A DNA stretch of 64,000 nucleotides, taken from contig OY101122.1 in assembly GCA_956465555.1 (NCBI GenBank), positions 1,623,001-1,687,000 on the forward strand. The letters are read 5' to 3'. This document shows, one piece after another, positions 38,636-64,000 of the stretch (positions within the stretch are counted from its first letter, which is position 1; every line of letters begins with the position of its first letter). The position numbers and the translations under genes are program-made. Below the pieces are notes generated by a model. That model saw only the letters and a program-made list of their open reading frames with translations, made no database searches and was not told the DNA's origin. This DNA is from Nitzschia sp. pyKryTriq1 (taxonomy: Eukaryota; Bacillariophyta; Bacillariophyceae; Bacillariales; Bacillariaceae).

Positions 38636-38944
38636 AGGTCTTTGGTCTTTCAGCAACCGTTTTAAGCACAAGAAATATAATTGCGTTTTTTAAGAAGAGC
38701 AACTTGTATTCAATACTGTAGAGGACTTGCGATGATAAAGAGGCTTCGGATGATGAAGAATAGTCTACTTGTATATACCGGTAGGTAGGTTTATCTCTCT
38801 GGTTCTTTTCTACTTTCTTGCCTTTCTTTTTTATCATATTTTTTTGACACACTCGACACATCGTGACTGAAACATTCGTGAGCCAGAAACCATGCCACCA
38901 TGATGATGGTTCACTGACGTTGCGATCTTTTCCAACGATACACG

Positions 38945-39250
38945 TGTAAGAATAATCAGGTAATGGGCTCTGAGGATTCGAGTCACTCTCACGACTCCGA
39001 GTGGGATTAACCGGAGTATTCCGAATACGAATGGTGCACGTTTGGAGAACTCTTCGGAGGCTTTCGAAGAACCCCTTCGTTATGAAAAGAGGCTCGAAGA
39101 ATATCGGAGGAGATCCATGGGAGAATGAAAAGAATCCATTCCCCTCAGAATACCCATAACGAAAAGCTCACAATTTTAATAATTCCATTTTAGGAAACGT
39201 TAAAACACTATTCGCCCAAATACTAGGCTCATTACCTCAGTATTTTAACA
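38945..39250 (+). repeat. Left LTR of the Copia derivative
   Basis: 306 bp, TG...CA-type ends (TGTAAG/TTAACA), with no difference seen from the right copy. Confidence 0.95.
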
Positions 39251-39666
39251 CGCTTCCTCTGCGCTAAGAACTGATCACGGAGAGCGAATTTACGGGAATC
39301 AGCTACGCACTTCGGGATGCAATTCCCGTCATGGAACTTTTCAAGGAAATGAAGGAAATAGGCTATCCTATCGTGACGACGACGTCGAAGATGAGATGTA
39401 AAGTGTTTGAGGACAATACCGGCGCCATCGAGATCGCTAAAGTCCCAAAGTTCCGACCAAGAACCAAACATTTGAACAACCGTCTGCACTTCTTCCGTTC
39501 GTACACCGATGGAAAGGATCCACAGATCACAATCCACAAAATTGCGACTGAAGATCAGCCTGCCGACATTCTGACGAAACCATTGAATGAAGAGCTCCTA
39601 GTTCGACATCGAAAGGAGATCATGGGATGGTAGCCTGAGCCGACTCGAGCAACCCGAAAGAGGGAG

Positions 39667-39972
39667 TGTAAGAATAATCAGGTAATGGGCTCTGAGGATT
39701 CGAGTCACTCTCACGACTCCGAGTGGGATTAACCGGAGTATTCCGAATACGAATGGTGCACGTTTGGAGAACTCTTCGGAGGCTTTCGAAGAACCCCTTC
39801 GTTATGAAAAGAGGCTCGAAGAATATCGGAGGAGATCCATGGGAGAATGAAAAGAATCCATTCCCCTCAGAATACCCATAACGAAAAGCTCACAATTTTA
39901 ATAATTCCATTTTAGGAAACGTTAAAACACTATTCGCCCAAATACTAGGCTCATTACCTCAGTATTTTAACA
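39667..39972 (+). repeat. Right LTR of the Copia derivative
   Basis: 306 bp, the same as the left copy, directly preceded by the purine-rich tract and followed by TACACG. Confidence 0.95.
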
Positions 39973-52348: not shown

Positions 52349-53514
52349 ATGATGTCGATGCCATCATGTGTAACACACACTGCGTCGACTCGGGTGATCG
52401 GCAGGTATAGGCTGAGTCGTGTACTTTTCGCTGCGTTGCTCGCCGGCATTGTTAGCCAAAGCCTTGGAGCTTTTGTCGGTATGCAACAACAGCTCTCTCG
52501 CCAAGGGAAAACAATTGCATCATCACTTGAAGCATCTCTGAGCAGCGAGGAGGTTCGATCAAGACTTATCAGTCAGCTAGAAAAGCTCCGACTTAAGGAC
52601 CGACAAGCCAAAGTTGTTTCCAAAGAAGTAAGTGTTGGTGACGGATATTTAATTTTATTGTACTGGACGCCTGAGGACTCACAAGTGTTGCCATTCTCTC
52701 GACTTGCAAAACTTTGCCACAGGACATTGTTATTGTATCAGAAGATGAATATCTGGTCGTCGTTGACAAGCCCTCGGGTGTTTTGTCTGTTGCCAGTGAG
52801 CAGGGGATTCCATCACTTGCACAGACAGTTTTCGAAACTGCGAAAAGTAATTTCTCTTCATATGACCGGATGGTTGTGCATAGGCTAGGGACAGAGACAT
52901 CGGGTTTGATTGTGTTCGCAAAAACTATGGAAGCGCTTCGTGGAATGAATTCTTTGTTCAGAACCCGGCAGGTGACAAGACAATACGAAGTCCTGGTTTG
53001 TGGCCATGTAAAAGAGCAGCGTGGAACCATTGATATGCCATTGATGCGAGACTATATTCATCCACCATATATGCGCATATCCACAGATGAACACCAAAAG
53101 GCGTTACTGGATTTGAACCCCAACATTGTAGGGAAGAAGCTTCTCGAGGCCCCGAAGCCAAGTCAAACTCATTACGAGGTGGTGAGCCGCGAGAGCCTAA
53201 AGAGCACGGACTTGCCTGTCACGCGGCTAACTGTAACAAGTATTACCGGCCGAACCCACCAACTGAATGTACATTGTGCCGCTTTCGGTCATCCCATCGT
53301 CGGCGACCGTGTGTATGGGCTGGGTGGGGAAGCAGCCCCATATGGCGGCCTTGAAATGGCCCCGGATAGAGAAGGAGCTGCAACAATTGAGTTACAAGAT
53401 GAAATTGCCAAAGCCGCCGCTGATTTGAACATGTGCGTCCACGCCAAGCATCTTAAGTTCCGGCACCCGATCACAAACAATCTTCTTGAATTTAGAAGTC
53501 CTGCACCATTTTGA
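52349..53514 (+). CDS. RluA-family pseudouridine synthase-like protein, copy 1 (HRLG variant)
   Basis: There are two exons, 52349-52627 and 52723-53514, encoding 356 residues; the 95-bp intron (GTAAGT...CACAG) is phase 0, just before DIVIVSEDEYLVVVDKPSGV. The leader ends SLGAFVGM, ASAFAP-like, so plastid import is likely. The fold motifs are present: VDKPSGVL, RTHQLNVHCAAFGHPIVGDRVYG, and a C-terminal HAKHLKFRHP. The catalytic-loop motif reads VVHRLGTETSGLIVFAK, with Gly (residue 149) where canonical RluA enzymes have the catalytic Asp (HRLDxxTSG). It may be inactive, RNA-binding only, or use another residue. A paralogue with the same change lies at 59563. Confidence 0.85.
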
Positions 53515-55911
53515 ACTGGCTTGAATGAAGCGTTTCTCGATCACGGCGACAGAACGACGAACTGAAATCCAATGGGAAGCCGTTAGGTCGCTTCCCTGGG
53601 AAGTTGGGAGCGCGCCTGGGAAATTATGTTTGAGGGCGAGATGCCAGCACAGATTGCTGCCACCATGCTGCCATGTTCACTGACGAGATTGAAGCAACCC
53701 AGAAGCACACCCTAACTGCCAACTGAGCATACAATCAGTTCCAAGCAACCACTTTACTACTTCCTACCTTCATTTGCAGAGGCGCGAGTTTTTTGGGGAG
53801 AGAATCCCTCCTTCGCTGCTGCTACACACCAGCACAAAACTGCAACAAGAAGTTCAAAATCAGTTCTGTGATTGCAGTCTGATCTCTCTACCGTTACCGA
53901 CACGCAAGACTTTAGCTTCATCTGCCGACACACAGATGGGGAGGTGGAAGTGCAGGCCCGAGACACGAGAGATAGATCGATGCGATCATGATTTTTCGCA
54001 GTCTCTGCTAGACTATTAGACTCTACGTGTTACTGACTGTACTGGTTCAACGACCTCTAGAGTGATGATACGAGCGATGATGACAGTAGGTGCATGTGGT
54101 AGGTGGGAGCGATTCATAGAAGATGCTATTCGTAGGCTACATGGTCTATTTTTAGATACATTTGTTGCACTTTTTTCGCTATTGTTTTATATTGCGTAAT
54201 GGACACTGGACACCCCCAACGAACGAAGGACAGACAAGAAGTCGAACGAACACAAACTTGACCCAAGCTTGACCCGATACCGAAGAGAGACGACCGATGA
54301 AGAATTATCATCATCATCATCATCTCATCCTAGCAAGGATGCCGTCAGGCTGTATGACCAAGGTATGACAGCGGGTTCTTCGCACCCCCAACGAAAGACG
54401 GACAGACCAAAAGTCGACCAGCAGAGCGCGCCAAGAATTGGCGATCACCTATCCGACCAACGAGAGACGACCGATGATCACACAAGATCACCAGAAGTCA
54501 ACCAGAGCGCGCCAAGAATTGGCAATCAGCTATCCGACCAACAAGAGACGACCGATGATCACACAAGATCATCGATCGAAGAAACATCCCTCCGACTTCG
54601 ACTTACTAGCAAGAATAGATTTGAAAACCCCGCCCACCATCCCTTACACCTTTGAACGAGGCAAGGTGATGTACCGAAGGGTAACCCAAAAGACAGAGAA
54701 CAGCTACGCAGTTCGAAGTTGAGTAGGGTCTTAGGCCAACGAATTTGAAATACTATACACTAATATTCATTGGTCTAGAATGTCCGAGAGAGTTGAGGGC
54801 TGGTTGGTGCGTTATCTCTAACGTGATATGAAAATTATGAATTATTTTACTGGTGTTTTCGTCTATTCTCAAACCTTGGTAAACAGAGAGGAGAACCCAA
54901 CGGCCGGTATGTACCAGTACACGTACTGCACGGACAAAACGATCAAATTTTGCCTGATCGTGGTGCGTGGTGGGCGTGCGGACCGCATTTTGGGGCCCCT
55001 CCCCCAAAGCTAGCCGCGCTTTTTGTCGCACTCCCGTGCGGGGGGGGCGCGGTAACAACTGGCTAAGCTACGAATACACCACTGCCTGTTTTCACTGAAG
55101 ATTGTCATGATCATCGTCTATCACAGACTACTCAAGTAGATCTCCAACCTAAACTAACCTATTGAAGAGATCTCCCGCCTTCTTTGAGAGCGAGACCAGT
55201 TCTGTCAAGAAAGCTCCTCACCAGCAGGAAGAAGTACGGTTCGTACTACTACCAGTAAACGTAGAGTACTACCGGTACTCAGTACCGGTACAGTAGTAGT
55301 AGTGCGGGTAGGTGAATAGTACTACCGGTACCTTTACTCGGGTGCTGACGGTATCAATCATTCTGGCAAGTCCGATCTCTACCACTGTACCGATACCGGT
55401 AGAGACCAGTCAACAGAAGAGCGGATGCTGGTGTAGAGAGGCCATAAGTCCGATCCCAATAATTCAAACAAAAATAATGCAAAAATTTGGCGACGTGCGC
55501 GGAAATTTCACGAGTCTCAACGCACCAATGCTGACACCATACTCACCGCAGCCAAACATGAAATTTGCTAACGTTAGATGTATAAAAAGTGGAATCCAAG
55601 ACAGGATTTGTAGTAATGGTAGACAAAGAGATGGTTTACAAGGTTATCACTATGTAGAATACTTGCAAAGCATGGTTGCGACCGTGGGCCACTGGTAAGG
55701 TCCAATACCAGCGGACGATGATTCACAGTTCGAGGCGACAGCCTCATTCTTCGTAGTTGTAGCACAGGTGATATTATTGATAGTAACGAGGATTTGGTAT
55801 ATTGCTTACCAAAGAAAGGAAGTTAGAAACATTTAGCAGCAAACTGCTCCAGGTTGTGAGAAATTTGCTGGGGGTTGGTTGTACCCTTTGAGGGAAGGCA
55901 TCTCGGCTCTT
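53515..55911. other. Gene-poor 2.4 kb with dispersed repeat and GTAC patch
   Basis: It holds the 54381-54611 dispersed repeat (separate entry), a related diverged segment at about 54207-54310, an A/T-rich stretch, a poly-G run near 55038-55046 and a GTAC-rich patch at about 55236-55405 (ACCGGTACTCAGTACCGG). Frames at 54269-54655 and 55312-55698 are not called as genes. Confidence 0.45.
54381..54611. repeat. Dispersed repeat, copy A, with an internal 81-bp tandem duplication
   Basis: The sequence starts CGCACCCCCAACGAAAGACGG and ends CGACTTACTAGC. An 81-bp unit (AGCGCGCCAAGAATTGG at 54424 and again at 54505) is present twice. An inverted relative lies at 59290-59435 with one unit. Unit length is a multiple of three, so frames stay open, but I see no known protein. 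Confidence 0.85.
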
Positions 55912-57522: not shown

Positions 57523-59562
57523 TGTTCGCGCCTTGGTTTGGGTATATTGATAGATGCAATGCGGTAGAAAACAGTTCGTTGTTTTGTGAAGCAAATGCAG
57601 CGTTCTCGGGGGCAGTTCGGCACAAACAATGCTGCGGAACAATCATTCCTTGACGTCTCGTAGCCGCGCTACCAGAATTTACGTATGGCACAACGCATCC
57701 TCGCCTTTGCCGTCCTACGACCATTCTACGGTGATATTGTACTGAGTATTGGACAAAAATTGGCTGGCCGCTGGTTGGTCAGAAGGCATCGCAAGAATTC
57801 TACTACTACGTAGTCGTGTACGCTGACGCAAGTGAAATTGCGTGCAGAAACAGAGGTGCGACATCAACGACATTCCGTTGGCAGATTCCGTTTATGGCTA
57901 CACAACAAAGAGGGCAATAATATACTTTCAGCTCTCGCCACTTAGCGTCATAAATAGCTAATAATTTCGATAGCGACGCAGTCCTTGCCCGGGACTTGTG
58001 ATATGCGTCTCATCTGATGTGTCGCATGGGCTATGTGACAGCCTATTCGATGTGTCTGAAGCGTTGTGCAACGGCAATTACATAGACGACGAAATTTTTT
58101 ACATCCGACTTATCTACAAGATCGGTTAGCGATCGGCACAATTTTCTTCAAGACTGCCAATGTTGTGAGTTCTTCATTCATAATAAAGCACAGTGGACCC
58201 CTCTGTCGTCTACGATAGTGATACCATATTATGTGTGATCGGGAGATGCGTGTTCGTTGGCCGGCGGCGGGGTCGTCGGTTCCTTGTTTCTCCGGAAGTT
58301 TGGCTGTTCTGGTCAGAGTTCTGATACTGGTAGTAAACACATCACTCTGGCACGAAGAATGCATTCTGATCGAGCCAACCTGCTTCATTCTCATCTCAAA
58401 TAATGCTTGCTGTTCTGTGTTTTCCAACTTGATAGGCCCTACTACCGGTACTGCAGTACAAATAATAACAAATAATGCCTCTTCTTCGCCTCGTCTTCTT
58501 CTCCGTCTGCTGACGGTACAATACCAGTAACCGGTACGAGTACCAGGTACTGTACAAGTAGCTTCTTCGCATGCATGCACTGAAATTAGTTTATTTGATG
58601 GTCGGTGCAAGTACTATTCTTCCGGTTCCTGAACTTCGCGAGAAGGACTTGCCGCGCACTTCGCTTTGTATGAATAGTCTACTTCGGTTTGTATGAATAG
58701 TCTACTGTGTAATTCGAAAATACTGTATGATATCAAAGGACAAGATTCAAGCAGCTTCCCACAATTCTTCTGAATAGTCTCACTCCACTACTCTAGCTGG
58801 AGAGTAGTGTCCTCTTTTGAATCCAAGGAAAAAGGAAAAGCAAGTCAGATGGAAAGAACAAACATTGCAAAGTGGTGCTGCCACCCACCACTTTCTGTGA
58901 TAGGCTTTGCAACTTCCTTGTTGCATTGGTGCTGCTTGGGTGGTGGAAAGTAGAGGAACTGTGAAAGCAGGCAGCAAGCCAGCACAACTATATGCCTCAA
59001 AAGAAGACGCCATGGTTCCGGCAGAAGATGAGAGCAGACAAATGAATGGCCCACCGTGCACCACGTAGTTACACTATATGTAGTGTACAACAGTAGAAAT
59101 GTGGTTTCTGCCCAAACCAAATGCAGTACTCTGTCAGTGCGAATATGTGAAAGTACACTACAAAGTGGTCTCAGCTTTCAAAATGACCATGAAGGGGTCG
59201 CCGACCCGATTTGAATGTTCACCGCTGTCATATCGCGGCCATGGTCAAAATCCAGTGTGGCGTGACTCTACTAGTAGTCACTCTACTATGCTAGTAACTC
59301 GAAGTCGGTGTGATGTTCGTTCGATCGATGATCTTGTGTGACCATCGGTCGTCTCTCGTCGGTCGGATAGGTGATCGCCAATTCGTGGCGCGCTCTGGTC
59401 GACTTCTGGTCTGTCCGTCTTTCGTTCGGGGTGCGAATCATCACCAACACGTGTCCATCGCAGCCATCAGTATTTTCTTCGAAGCCATCAAGCATCCGTT
59501 AGAGTTGTGAGATTATTCATATTTCATACTTCCGACCGAAAGAGCTTCTCTCTTCTTACATC
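57523..59562. other. Gene-poor 2.0 kb upstream of the second RluA-like gene
   Basis: Contains a two-copy 19-bp repeat (TTTGTATGAATAGTCTACT at 58665 and 58688), GTAC words at about 58440-58560, CTACTAGTAG near 59268-59277, and inverted copy B of the dispersed repeat (59290-59435). No gene is recognised; short frames near 58110-58610 and 58845-59120 have no features. Confidence 0.45.
59290..59435. repeat. Dispersed repeat, copy B, inverted
   Basis: The reverse complement starts CGCACCCCGAACGAAAGACGG, contains AGCGCGCCACGAATTGGCG and ends CGAGTTACTAGCA. It matches copy A at 54381-54611 with scattered differences and only one 81-bp unit. It lies about 130 bp before the second RluA-like gene. Confidence 0.85.
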
Positions 59563-60820
59563 ATGCGTTTCCAGCTTGCTACATCGATTATCGCTACTTG
59601 TCTACTCGTTGGAGACTCCTTCACCTCGTCGCAGTGCAAATGGGGCATCACGAGAAGTGCCATGTTCAGCACTACCAACCCTGACCATGCCACGGAAACC
59701 AAGCAGGCAACTCAGCAACGTGTCGAGAGTACCGACATCGAAATTGATATTGCGGATATCTTTCCTATGCCTGATACAAAGGACGAGATCCTTCCATTGA
59801 CTGCCGAAGAAATTAATACTCGGCGTGATCGACAACTGACACAGCTTCGGCAGAAGGATCAAACCTCCAAACAGTTGAGCACGGAGGTATGTTCTTTGAT
59901 TTTTTTGGAAGGATCGCGGGGGAAAACACGTTGAATTATTCCAATGTTCTTGATTAGAACGTCACATTCACAAAGTCAAATACAAGCACAAGTCTAATGC
60001 TTTTTTTTATTTTTTTCAGAATCTCCAGATTGTATTCCAAGATGAAGATATGGTCGTGGTCGACAAGCCATCGGGTGTTTTGACCGTTGCGGGAAAAGAA
60101 CCCAATCCAAACATTGCGCAAACAGTATTTGATTCCACCAAAGCTGACCTTCCCACGGCGGACCACATGGTCGTACATAGATTGGGAATGGATACATCGG
60201 GGCTACTGGTATTTGCGAAAAGCAAGGCTGCCGTTCGGGGTATGAACGGAGAATTTCGTGAGCGTAAAGTCAAACGACAATACGAGGCGCTTGTCATGGG
60301 TCATATTGCAAAGGATGAAGGTCTTATCAGTCTACCGATTATGAGGGATTATGAATTTCCCCCGTATGTTCGAATTTCGACCGACGATCATCAGCGGGCG
60401 CTACTGGATTTGGATCCTGAAGAAGTTGGGAAAAAGATTTTGGAAGGCCCAAAGGCAAGCATCACAAAATATCAAGTTGTTTCAAGAGAAGAGTTCCTTG
60501 GACACCCGGTTACGAGAGTGACTCTCACGAGTATTTCGGGTCGGTACCATCAACTGAATGTGCATATGGCTGCCTTTGGTCATCCGATTGTTGGCGACTC
60601 TGTTTATGGCTACAATGGTGAGGCTGTTTCGAATGGAGGGCTTACGGACGAAGAATTGAAAGAATTGGCACCCAACCCAAATAGAGCGGAAGAACGACTA
60701 CAAGCTGCTATTGCAGCAGCTGCAAAGGACATGCCACCCTGTGTCCACGCAAAATATCTTGGATTCCGGCACCCCATTTCGAAGAAATTCGTCGAGTTTA
60801 GCACCGAATCTCCATTTTAG
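59563..60820 (+). CDS. RluA-family pseudouridine synthase-like protein, copy 2 (HRLG variant)
   Basis: There are two exons, 59563-59886 and 60020-60820, encoding 374 residues; the 133-bp intron (GTATGT...TTCAG) is phase 0 and at the same site as in copy 1, just before NLQIVFQDEDMVVVDKPSGV. The signal-like N-terminus (MRFQLATSIIATCLLVGDSF) suggests plastid or secretory entry, with a possible ASAF-like SFTS. Motifs: VDKPSGVLTVAG, RYHQLNVHMAAFGHPIVGDSVYG, HAKYLGFRHP. The catalytic-loop motif reads VVHRLGMDTSGLLVFAK, again with Gly (residue 164) in place of the expected Asp. The spacing from the intron to this Gly is the same in both copies. It is convergent with the deaminase-CRM gene. Confidence 0.85.
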
Positions 60821-60976: not shown

Positions 60977-62209
60977 CTATTTATCCTCCTCCTCCTCAGT
61001 CGTTTCGCTGGCTTTGTCGTTGTTATCTTCACTTTTCGTCTGACCATTTACAGATTCCTCCTCATTCCGACCTTCTTCGACAAGGTCATTAAGGTCCAGG
61101 AAGGGCGGTATTCCCGGGCGATAAAGCAGTGATGTGTGTCCAACTGTTTGGGCAACATGAGCTCCAAGCTCGGAAGCGATCCTTTCAGCCAGTCGTTGGG
61201 CCATTTTCTTTTTCCCAACAGCTTTGTTGAGGCGCACATTGACCAGCTCCTTTTGCCATAATAGAAAATCCAATCTCTCCATCCACATTCCGTCCAGTTC
61301 CAACTCGTCCACTTCCGCTTCACTAGATGCGGATATTTTCCCAGTCCAAGTATATTCCGTAAGACCATCCTCCGCCTTCAATTTCCCAGCCATACGCCTC
61401 AGTGCTCGTCGCATTGCGCCCGTCACCCACGAATAGTCTGTTTCGTACGCCTTGGGTTCGATTCGTTTCACAAAGCTGTCGACCATATCGGCACAGGCTT
61501 GGCCAGCCATACCTTCCGCCAAGTCTACAGTGACCCCTGCTTCCTCCAATAATTTGACACCGCCCCCATCCACACGGGGGTTGGGGTCGCGAAATCCTAC
61601 CACTACTCGGTCCACTTTGGCCAAGACCAAAGCATTCGCGCACGGTGGTGTTTTCCCCGTATGACAACAGGGTTCTAAAGTCACATAAGCCGTGACAGGA
61701 AAAGAGGCCAAGCTGTCGCCAAATAATTCCTTTGGGCCGCCGTCTGAGGAGTATTTGTCAGCGAGGGCTCGGACCGAATCCAGAGACGATGCATCCTGAT
61801 CCACGACCGCCTTAGCGGCTTGCACGCCACTCGGAACGTGGCCAGCTGCTTCCAATAACGCAAAAACTTCAGCATGAGGGTAGCCAGCTCGAGGGTGAAA
61901 TCCTGATCCGATGACTTCATTTGTATCTTGTCGAACCAAAACACATCCTACAGCGGGGTTGGGGAAGGTTCTACCAAATCCATTCCTTGAATGATCGAGA
62001 GCTTGAGACAAAAATACTTCGTCCTCCGCGGAGATTGCAAACAGAGGTGATCGTGCGGAAGTGAAGCTTCTCGTGCCGAAGAATCTGCCGCTGCTAGCAA
62101 TATTTGAGGATTGACTTTGCAGCGTCGCTCCAAACGATTTCGCCTGCCGCAGCAACATCAGCGATGCTGTCATGAACATGAGGACCTTGGGAATCGGATC
62201 GACCACCAT
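60977..62209 (-). CDS. RibD-type pyrimidine deaminase fused to a CRM (YhbY)-like RNA-binding domain
   Basis: I chose the ATG at 62209 (MVVDPIPKVLMFMTASLML), a hydrophobic leader ending AKSFGATL, ASAFAP-like; the frame also has an ATG at 62308. The product has 410 residues. The deaminase part (about 62-242) has SRNGFGRTFPNPAVGCVLV, the zinc motif PHAEVFAL, LEPCCHTGKTPPC and VVVGFRDPNPRVDGGG. These are hallmarks of the RibD deaminase step of riboflavin synthesis (2,5-diaminopyrimidine deamination). The RibD reductase domain is absent. Instead residues about 261-367 follow the CRM/YhbY pattern: TGAMRRALRRMAGKLKAEDG, WQKELVNVRLNKAVGKKKMA, ASELGAHVAQTVGHTSLLYR. CRM domains bind RNA in ribosome assembly and plastid intron splicing. 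The tail is Glu-rich. It is divergent from the HCF101-type gene. Confidence 0.85.
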   Translation of the reverse strand: MVVDPIPKVLMFMTASLMLLRQAKSFGATLQSQSSNIASSGRFFGTRSFTSARSPLFAISAEDEVFLSQALDHSRNGFGRTFPNPAVGCVLVRQDTNEVIGSGFHPRAGYPHAEVFALLEAAGHVPSGVQAAKAVVDQDASSLDSVRALADKYSSDGGPKELFGDSLASFPVTAYVTLEPCCHTGKTPPCANALVLAKVDRVVVGFRDPNPRVDGGGVKLLEEAGVTVDLAEGMAGQACADMVDSFVKRIEPKAYETDYSWVTGAMRRALRRMAGKLKAEDGLTEYTWTGKISASSEAEVDELELDGMWMERLDFLLWQKELVNVRLNKAVGKKKMAQRLAERIASELGAHVAQTVGHTSLLYRPGIPPFLDLNDLVEEGRNEEESVNGQTKSEDNNDKASETTEEEEDK

Positions 62210-62674
62210 CGGATTCACTTGGAAAAAAGAGGGTGATGGGTGATGGTTGCTCTCGATGCGGGCGGATGGCGGATTGGATCGAAAAATAGTGAAATATGTG
62301 AAATCCATCTCACGAAGAATCTGAAATCATCATGATCTTTCATCTTCGCCTGCACTGCGTCCGTCGGCCTTTTCCCCCCCCTCGCCCCCCTCGACACCAA
62401 ACACTTGGAAGTTCGAAACAAACGACGGACAGACCCTTATAAAGAAAAGTAACATGTGACGTCAACAACCGATTTTCTGTCAAAAAAAGTTTTCGTATGG
62501 AAGTCTACCGGTACGTACTGGTAAACTCAAGGTACCAGGTAATGTACCGGTAGACTAAACGACTACCATAGTCTACTGTTCTTCAAGTTGGAAAATCTTG
62601 AGTGATGATGAAACATCGCATGATGAGAAGATGATGGTCAACACATACTCTCTCTGATTACCATTTAAAATATC
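62210..62674. other. Divergent intergenic region with GTAC/TAGTCTAC patch
   Basis: This 465-bp gap has GTAC words at about 62505-62545 (TACCGGTACGTACTGG, GGTACCAGGTAATG), then CGGTAGACTAAACGACTACC and TAGTCTACTG near 62547-62578. A C-rich run lies near 62376-62390. No gene is seen. Confidence 0.55.
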
Positions 62675-64000
62675 ATGATGTATCTGCCTATGAAAAGTGC
62701 TTTGCTTCTGTTGGGATTGCTCCCGTGCGATGGTTTTGTGGCCCAATCGAAGTGGCAGTCCAACCATAAAGTTCCCACGAGAATATGGGGGGCGCCGTCA
62801 ACTTCTTCGGAAGACGGTGCAACGTCGCTGCCCGTCCCCAAAGAGTGGCAAGGGGAAGTTCTCAAATCATTAAAAGCTGTGATCGATCCCGATTTGAACC
62901 AAGATATTGTCACTCTTGGATTTGTGAAGAATCTATCTTTGGATCAAGCAAGCCGTGAGGTAGCCTTTGACGTCGAGTTGACGACCCCTGCCTGCCCCGT
63001 GAAAGATCAATTTGCGGCGGATTGTGAACGAATCGTGCTAGAATTGCCATGGATCGAAACTGCCAAAATCACCATGACTGCTCAGCCATCGGCAATGGAC
63101 ACTTCGACACTCGGCATGGCACAAATTGGCGCTGTGATTGCTGTCAGTAGTTGCAAGGGAGGGGTCGGAAAGAGTACTACTGCCGTCAATCTGGCGTATT
63201 CCCTGCAGTCCCTGGGAGCCACTGTTGGGATTTTTGATGCGGACGTCTATGGTCCAAGCTTGCCGACTATGATCAAACCTGACGATGATATTGTGCGATT
63301 TGTGGGACGTCAAATTGCTCCACTTCAACGTAATGGAGTCCGGCTCATGAGTTTTGGATACGTCAACGAAGGAAGCGCCATCATGCGAGGTCCAATGGTC
63401 ACCCAACTGCTAGATCAGTTCCTAAGCGTCACGCAGTGGGGAAGCTTGGATTATTTGATTCTGGATATGCCACCAGGCACTGGTGATATTCAATTGACGT
63501 TGACGCAACGGCTCAACATTACTGCTGCCGTGATTGTGACGACGCCCCAAGAATTGAGTTTTGCCGACGTTGTCAGGGGGGTGGAAATGTTTGACTCTGT
63601 CAATGTGCCATGTGTTGCTGTGGTAGAGAATATGGCTTACTACGAGGTTGAAAAGGACAAGGCATTTGATACCAGCAAACTTGAAGCAGCATTTTCCGAG
63701 GTTTTGGCGGCGAAGGGTGTCAACGGCGACTCAAAAGATCTCGCCAAAGAGCTTGTCAAAATAGTTCTAGACAAAACCGAGAGCAAGGAAATTCCTATTT
63801 TCGGTCCTGGTCACAAGCAACGATTATCCGACCAATGGGGCATTGAACACACCTTTTCGATGCCGCTGATGGATACGATTGCTTTCAATGGTGATTCGGG
63901 TACTCCATTTGTTCTGGAGTATCCAGATAGTTCACAAGCTGCCATCTACAAGGAACTTGCAAGATCTGTGGTCAGTGAGGTCGCCAAGGCTAAATATTCT
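62675..64000 (+). CDS. HCF101: HCF101/Mrp-type P-loop iron-sulphur carrier ATPase, plastid-targeted (partial at window edge)
   Basis: The frame opens at the first of two adjacent ATGs (62675) and is still open at base 64000 (442 codons). The signal-like leader ends GFVAQ, consistent with a plastid precursor. An N-terminal MIP18/DUF59 domain (about 55-140) has LDQDIVTLGFVKNL-like sequence and TPACPVKDQF with its conserved Cys. The Mrp-type ATPase (about 155-330) has the deviant Walker A CKGGVGKST, FDADVYGPSLP and LILDMPPGTGD. A further region carries IFGPGHKQRLSDQWGIEH and GDSGTPFVL. HCF101 transfers 4Fe-4S clusters to photosystem I components in plants. Orthology rests on domain order and the plastid leader; a generic Mrp/NBP35-like protein is the alternative. 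Confidence 0.88.
   Translation, partial: MMYLPMKSALLLLGLLPCDGFVAQSKWQSNHKVPTRIWGAPSTSSEDGATSLPVPKEWQGEVLKSLKAVIDPDLNQDIVTLGFVKNLSLDQASREVAFDVELTTPACPVKDQFAADCERIVLELPWIETAKITMTAQPSAMDTSTLGMAQIGAVIAVSSCKGGVGKSTTAVNLAYSLQSLGATVGIFDADVYGPSLPTMIKPDDDIVRFVGRQIAPLQRNGVRLMSFGYVNEGSAIMRGPMVTQLLDQFLSVTQWGSLDYLILDMPPGTGDIQLTLTQRLNITAAVIVTTPQELSFADVVRGVEMFDSVNVPCVAVVENMAYYEVEKDKAFDTSKLEAAFSEVLAAKGVNGDSKDLAKELVKIVLDKTESKEIPIFGPGHKQRLSDQWGIEHTFSMPLMDTIAFNGDSGTPFVLEYPDSSQAAIYKELARSVVSEVAKAKYS

Follow-up and report, generated by a model that had tools for sequence, protein, structure and literature searches.

We conclude that one gene in the window (the whole 64,000-nucleotide stretch of Nitzschia sp. DNA analysed here) encodes a RibD-type deaminase of riboflavin synthesis joined to a C-terminal domain of the CRM/YhbY type, and that, judged from its sequence, this unusual architecture is real. 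On balance, we think that the protein is a monofunctional riboflavin deaminase of the plastid with an added C-terminal CRM module, which probably contacts RNA or pre-ribosomes.

One reading frame carries both domains

The gene lies on the minus strand and has the following features.

60977..62308, minus strand: whole reading frame of the deaminase-CRM fusion, 443 aa plus stop from the first ATG
62135..62209, minus strand: putative signal peptide, residues 34-58, followed by Phe59 (AKS/FGAT), read by eye
61451..62035, minus strand: RibD-type deaminase domain, residues 92-286, with H145, E147, C214, C223 and DPNPRVDGGG
61694..61837, minus strand: insertion within the deaminase, residues 158-205, about 44 residues beyond the bacterial RibD model; the codon score favours coding
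61112..61423, minus strand: CRM/YhbY-type domain, residues 296-399 (104 aa), placed by profile matches; net charge +3, pI 9.4
61289..61354, minus strand: extra segment in the CRM domain after AEDGLTE, about residues 319-340, placement uncertain
60980..61111, minus strand: acidic C-terminal tail, residues 400-443, net charge -12

The 443 codons contain no stop, including between the two domains, which are separated by a linker of ten residues. The in-frame Met34, at 62209, is a plausible alternative start and was taken as the beginning of the gene in the original prediction. The claim of one continuous frame made there is borne out, with the open frame reaching 62308, and every motif quoted there is found in the translation.

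To score coding potential, we derived codon log-odds from nine long frames within this window and sampled the gene in steps of 25-codon windows. The in-frame score was above zero in every sampled window across residues 97-433, both insertions included, and slightly below zero at residues 61-109. It was low (0.01-0.02) at residues 289-325 and 373-409, and another frame outscored the true one in six sampled windows (121-157, 289-325, 373-409). An intron within the insertion of either domain is disfavoured by these scores, which were trained in the same window.

The same data bear on whether the frame might unite two neighbouring genes, one for a deaminase and one for a CRM protein, through misassembly, loss of a stop codon or an intron left unspliced. 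The sequence comes from one assembly, and the dip at residues 289-325, where another frame scores higher, falls around and just past the junction of the domains. However, the frame is free of stops, its in-frame score stays positive across the sampled windows of residues 97-433, and the short linker offers little space in which to fit the 3' end of one gene and the leader of the next. We consider such a merger improbable.

The deaminase looks intact and has no reductase behind it

The N-terminal half is readily assigned. It matches TIGR00326, the equivalog of the bifunctional RibD, at E=4.8e-39 over profile positions 2-137 of 343, without reaching the cut-off of that family (134.5 bits vs 156.35), and Pfam PF00383 at 51.2 bits (cut-off 25). 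Residues 92-157 and 206-286 align with bacterial RibD deaminases, and similar stretches are recovered against solved RibD structures. The HxE and PC...C zinc motif of RibD deaminases can be read from the sequence as H145, E147, C214 and C223, in agreement with the assignment first proposed. With the catalytic residues and DPNPRVDGGG in place, the enzyme looks active and apparently intact.

Models of RibD and of its reductase part were built from 52 bacterial RibDs of 320-430 aa, drawn from the 54 of 80 loci with a strict PCxHxGxTPPC frame (28 were dropped). The RibD alignment stops at residue 286 of the fusion protein. The reductase-only model, run on the C-terminal 164 residues, reported no individual domain; with E values up to 1000 allowed, this part was listed as a complete target, again without an individual domain. 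The original prediction had described the reductase as lost. Its absence from the fusion protein stands, but a recent loss is not implied, since a deaminase-only Rib2 has been described for molds (PMC8256712).

The C-terminal domain is related to YhbY

In place of the reductase we find a domain whose homology to YhbY exceeds chance expectation on profile evidence, with an uncertain register in its middle. A YhbY model that we built from the YhbY genes of 39 bacterial loci scored the C-terminal part at 32.1 bits and the whole protein at 28.6, compared with at most 10.2 bits in 1000 shuffles and at most 4.9 in 931 other frames of the window (at least 40 aa). This supports the CRM-type domain of about 107 residues that had been proposed, which we place at residues 296-399. 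The Pfam family put forward for checking it, PF01985 (CRS1_YhbY), agrees for the C-terminal 164 aa (29.1 bits, cut-off 27) but falls just short for the whole protein (25.6 bits), and both matches span only about profile positions 31-84 of 84. The cut-off of TIGR00253, the NCBIfam YhbY equivalog (78.5), is far from reached, with 26.7 bits for the C-terminal part and 23.6 for the whole protein.

The similarity is strongest at residues 343-399 (ELVNVRL ... GAHVAQTVGHTSLLYRP) and weak in the first half of the domain. The first helix, TGAMRRALRRMAGKL, scores 1.3 bits on its own with our YhbY model and was placed by global profile alignment, in which the domain reached 50.4 compared with a maximum of 14.5 among 200 shuffles.

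Comparison with structures was less informative. A phmmer search of the C-terminal part against the solved YhbY structures 1jo0 and 1ln4 gave E values of only 0.19 and 0.57, which are not significant. A profile built from the window domain plus 11 bacterial YhbYs matched 1jo0, 1ln4 and 1rq8, as well as chain mL127 (8a22, 8apn, 8apo) at 33.3 bits, which we take to be a protein of the mitochondrial ribosome; as 11 of the 12 rows of this profile are bacterial, these matches say little about the window protein itself. Single-sequence AlphaFold models had low confidence (mean pLDDT 37.4 for the full protein and 42.6 for residues 292-404 alone).

The best-matching relatives are bacterial, and no fusion was found among them

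Scanning genome contigs with the full protein (six peptide patterns) detected 305 relatives. The best 80 of these 305 all have bacterial titles and all match from the deaminase part, with some tblastn matches extending to residues 319-400. When the YhbY model was run against the 1902 plus-strand frames of at least 40 aa in the best 80 RibD loci, nothing was found at E<=1. Viral contigs yielded no relatives of the C-terminal part (126 pattern matches), no relatives in a search for a YhbY (18 pattern matches) and no match to the degenerate pattern QTVGHTxLLYR. Among phage records, the whole protein matched three, in the deaminase part only. The same fusion was thus not found in relatives among the bacterial, viral and phage sequences searched (for genome contigs, the best 80 of 305).

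The bacterial matches that run on to residues 319-400 could mean that a RibD reductase has degenerated in the C-terminal part, or that this part is an unrelated sequence resembling a CRM domain by chance; the partial profile match and the non-significant E value of 0.19 against a YhbY structure are compatible with such a reading. Yet the reductase model (52 bacterial RibDs) identifies no domain there, and no shuffled sequence came near the YhbY score of the C-terminal part. We regard this explanation as very improbable.

YhbY itself was present in 9 of the 20 genomes behind RibD loci. Of 120 genomes in the phylum to which a locus titled Methylococcaceae led, 83 had it, and of 146 in the phylum to which a locus titled Cyanobacteria led, none did. 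Cyanobacteria are therefore not a favoured source of the CRM half. One bacterial YhbY match lies in an open frame of 522 residues (G022:C139:4226-4471), which may be a fusion or merely a long open frame.

The CRM domain is divergent but basic

CRM/YhbY-type domains elsewhere help to build ribosomes. Their GxxG loop is a conserved CRM motif (PMC7154815) and contributes to RNA binding (PMC7352785). It is absent from residues 296-399, where the best register reads AEDG. GxxG was present in 34 of the 39 bacterial YhbYs, and the other five lack it too. In the best register, obtained by global profile alignment, AEDGLTE falls on the YhbY loop and resembles the AENG and ADNG loops of two of the 39 bacterial copies; about five residues of the first strand are missing before it, and an insertion of about 22 follows it. 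The register favoured by MAFFT is shifted by a few residues, and the loop assignment is uncertain.

In charge, the domain is like YhbY. Its net charge of +3 and pI of 9.4 are close to the YhbY means of +3.1 and 9.0 (39 sequences), unlike the deaminase domain with its pI of 4.8. That the region is as basic as YhbY counts against a decayed domain.

These observations are central to our main rival explanation, in which the CRM-like domain serves only structure, as a remnant or a stabiliser. It would take the place of the reductase by packing against the deaminase or promoting oligomerisation, and would no longer bind RNA. The non-canonical loop and the rebuilt middle point in this direction. A precedent may lie in Rib2: the C-terminal helix of the Aspergillus oryzae enzyme matters for its stability and activity, and the authors who describe it suggest that domain fusion may compensate for a short C-terminal helix in yeast Rib2 (PMC8256712). 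Against a purely structural role, the basic charge and many core positions are retained, and the AEDGLTE register looks like loops found in natural YhbYs. This role is quite possible, though we would stop short of calling it probable, and our preference for RNA contact is a modest one.

The leader suggests a plastid protein

Plastid leaders of ochrophytes typically carry a phenylalanine directly after the cleavage site. Read from Met34, the protein opens with a hydrophobic stretch followed by AKS/FGAT, which by eye resembles the bipartite leader of ochrophyte plastid proteins. PMC5462543 mentions an ASAFAP motif for this group, and riboflavin synthesis is among the functions of ochrophyte plastids (PMC9004409). 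In Arabidopsis, a protein with a single CRM domain, CFM4, belongs to the chloroplast (PMC4021458). We think it probable that the fusion protein is targeted to the plastid.

Similar leaders, with a phenylalanine after a hydrophobic stretch (again by eye), were seen in a neighbouring RluA-type pseudouridine synthase gene and in the gene at 62675-64000 (+). The latter combines an iron-sulfur assembly domain with a NUBPL-type ATPase, is presumably HCF101-like given these domains, and is divergent from the deaminase-CRM gene, running off the window.

The window holds two RluA-type pseudouridine synthase genes, at 52714-53511 (+) and 60050-60817 (+), which agree at 152 of 259 aligned positions. The second is the tail-to-tail neighbour of the deaminase-CRM gene. 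They are of interest in view of yeast Rib2, where a synthase of this type is joined to the deaminase, although this proximity may be due to chance. Inverted copies at 54379-54611 and 59289-59437 (90-93% identical), near both synthase genes, suggest local duplication or a mobile element. Elsewhere, two identical direct copies of 307 bases (38944-39250 and 39666-39972, 722 bases from start to start) lie downstream of the gene for the 51 kDa subunit of complex I and may be a recent duplication, a small mobile element or an assembly artefact. Further genes of the window, for coatomer gamma, Raptor, an LTN1-like protein and glucosidase II beta, mark it as eukaryotic.

A possible role for the fusion protein

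The explanation that we favour, an RNA-contacting CRM module on a plastid deaminase, would work as follows. The protein would be nucleus-encoded, probably plastid-targeted and responsible for the monofunctional pyrimidine deaminase step of riboflavin synthesis (RibD/PyrD/Rib2), with its single CRM domain occupying the place of the bacterial reductase. Its deaminase half would deaminate diaminohydroxyphosphoribosylaminopyrimidine, and the reduction would be supplied by another protein. In plants, PYRD is described as the deaminase and PYRR as the reductase (PMC10964609). In two sea-ice diatoms, a 2026 paper reports expanded RibD families (PMC13149256). The CRM half, which is still basic and retains most of the YhbY core, would most likely still contact RNA, probably plastid rRNA or pre-ribosomes, and this contact would add a second plastid function or tether the enzyme there. 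We infer the plastid location, the deaminase activity and the separate reductase, whereas the contact of the CRM half with RNA and the purpose of that contact are our guess.

A more ambitious version would make it a dual-function plastid protein. It would produce a riboflavin precursor, its CRM domain would bind RNA or pre-ribosomes of the plastid, and flavin supply would be physically coupled to the assembly of plastid ribosomes or to RNA processing; the fusion would also have been fixed across a lineage of algae with secondary plastids. We think this possible but doubtful.

Comparison with known systems

The deaminase half resembles bacterial RibD/RibG (TIGR00326), where a deaminase domain sharing its catalytic motifs likewise precedes a second domain. 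The fusion differs in having no reductase, about 44 extra residues within the deaminase and a CRM-type domain where the reductase would be. The CRM half shares with single-CRM proteins, such as E. coli YhbY and Arabidopsis CFM4 (PMC4021458), the first helix, the ELxxVxx strand and the helix that follows it, the GHTxLLYR end and a basic character. In contrast to them, it is fused to an enzyme, is without GxxG, has a longer middle and scores far below the cut-off for YhbY equivalogs.

A fusion of riboflavin enzymes is reported from ochrophyte plastids, where a chimeric protein combines DHBP synthase and GTP cyclohydrolase II (PMC5462543). That chimera joins two steps of one pathway, whereas the window fusion joins an enzyme to an RNA-type domain. 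The open-access literature, covered mostly as titles and abstract openings, gave no description of a riboflavin deaminase combined with a CRM/YhbY domain, and searching a paper on oomycete fusions (PMC2705460) for related passages brought up nothing relevant. As far as these literature searches reach, the deaminase-CRM architecture is new and undescribed, with yeast Rib2 as a precedent in kind.

Like the fusion, the Rib2 proteins of yeasts and molds are riboflavin deaminases without a reductase (PMC8256712). Yeast Rib2 is usually a pseudouridine synthase plus a deaminase, and mold Rib2 a deaminase only; that of A. oryzae carries just a charged flexible tail where the window protein has its CRM-type domain (PMC8256712). 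The partner also differs in kind and position, being an N-terminal, RNA-modifying pseudouridine synthase in yeast and a C-terminal CRM domain here. The deaminase-CRM protein would thus be a second joining of a riboflavin deaminase to an RNA-type domain, with a different domain and apparently in the plastid. Such a recurrence would suggest a real link between this step of riboflavin synthesis and RNA or ribosome biology, for which the protein offers a concrete test case.
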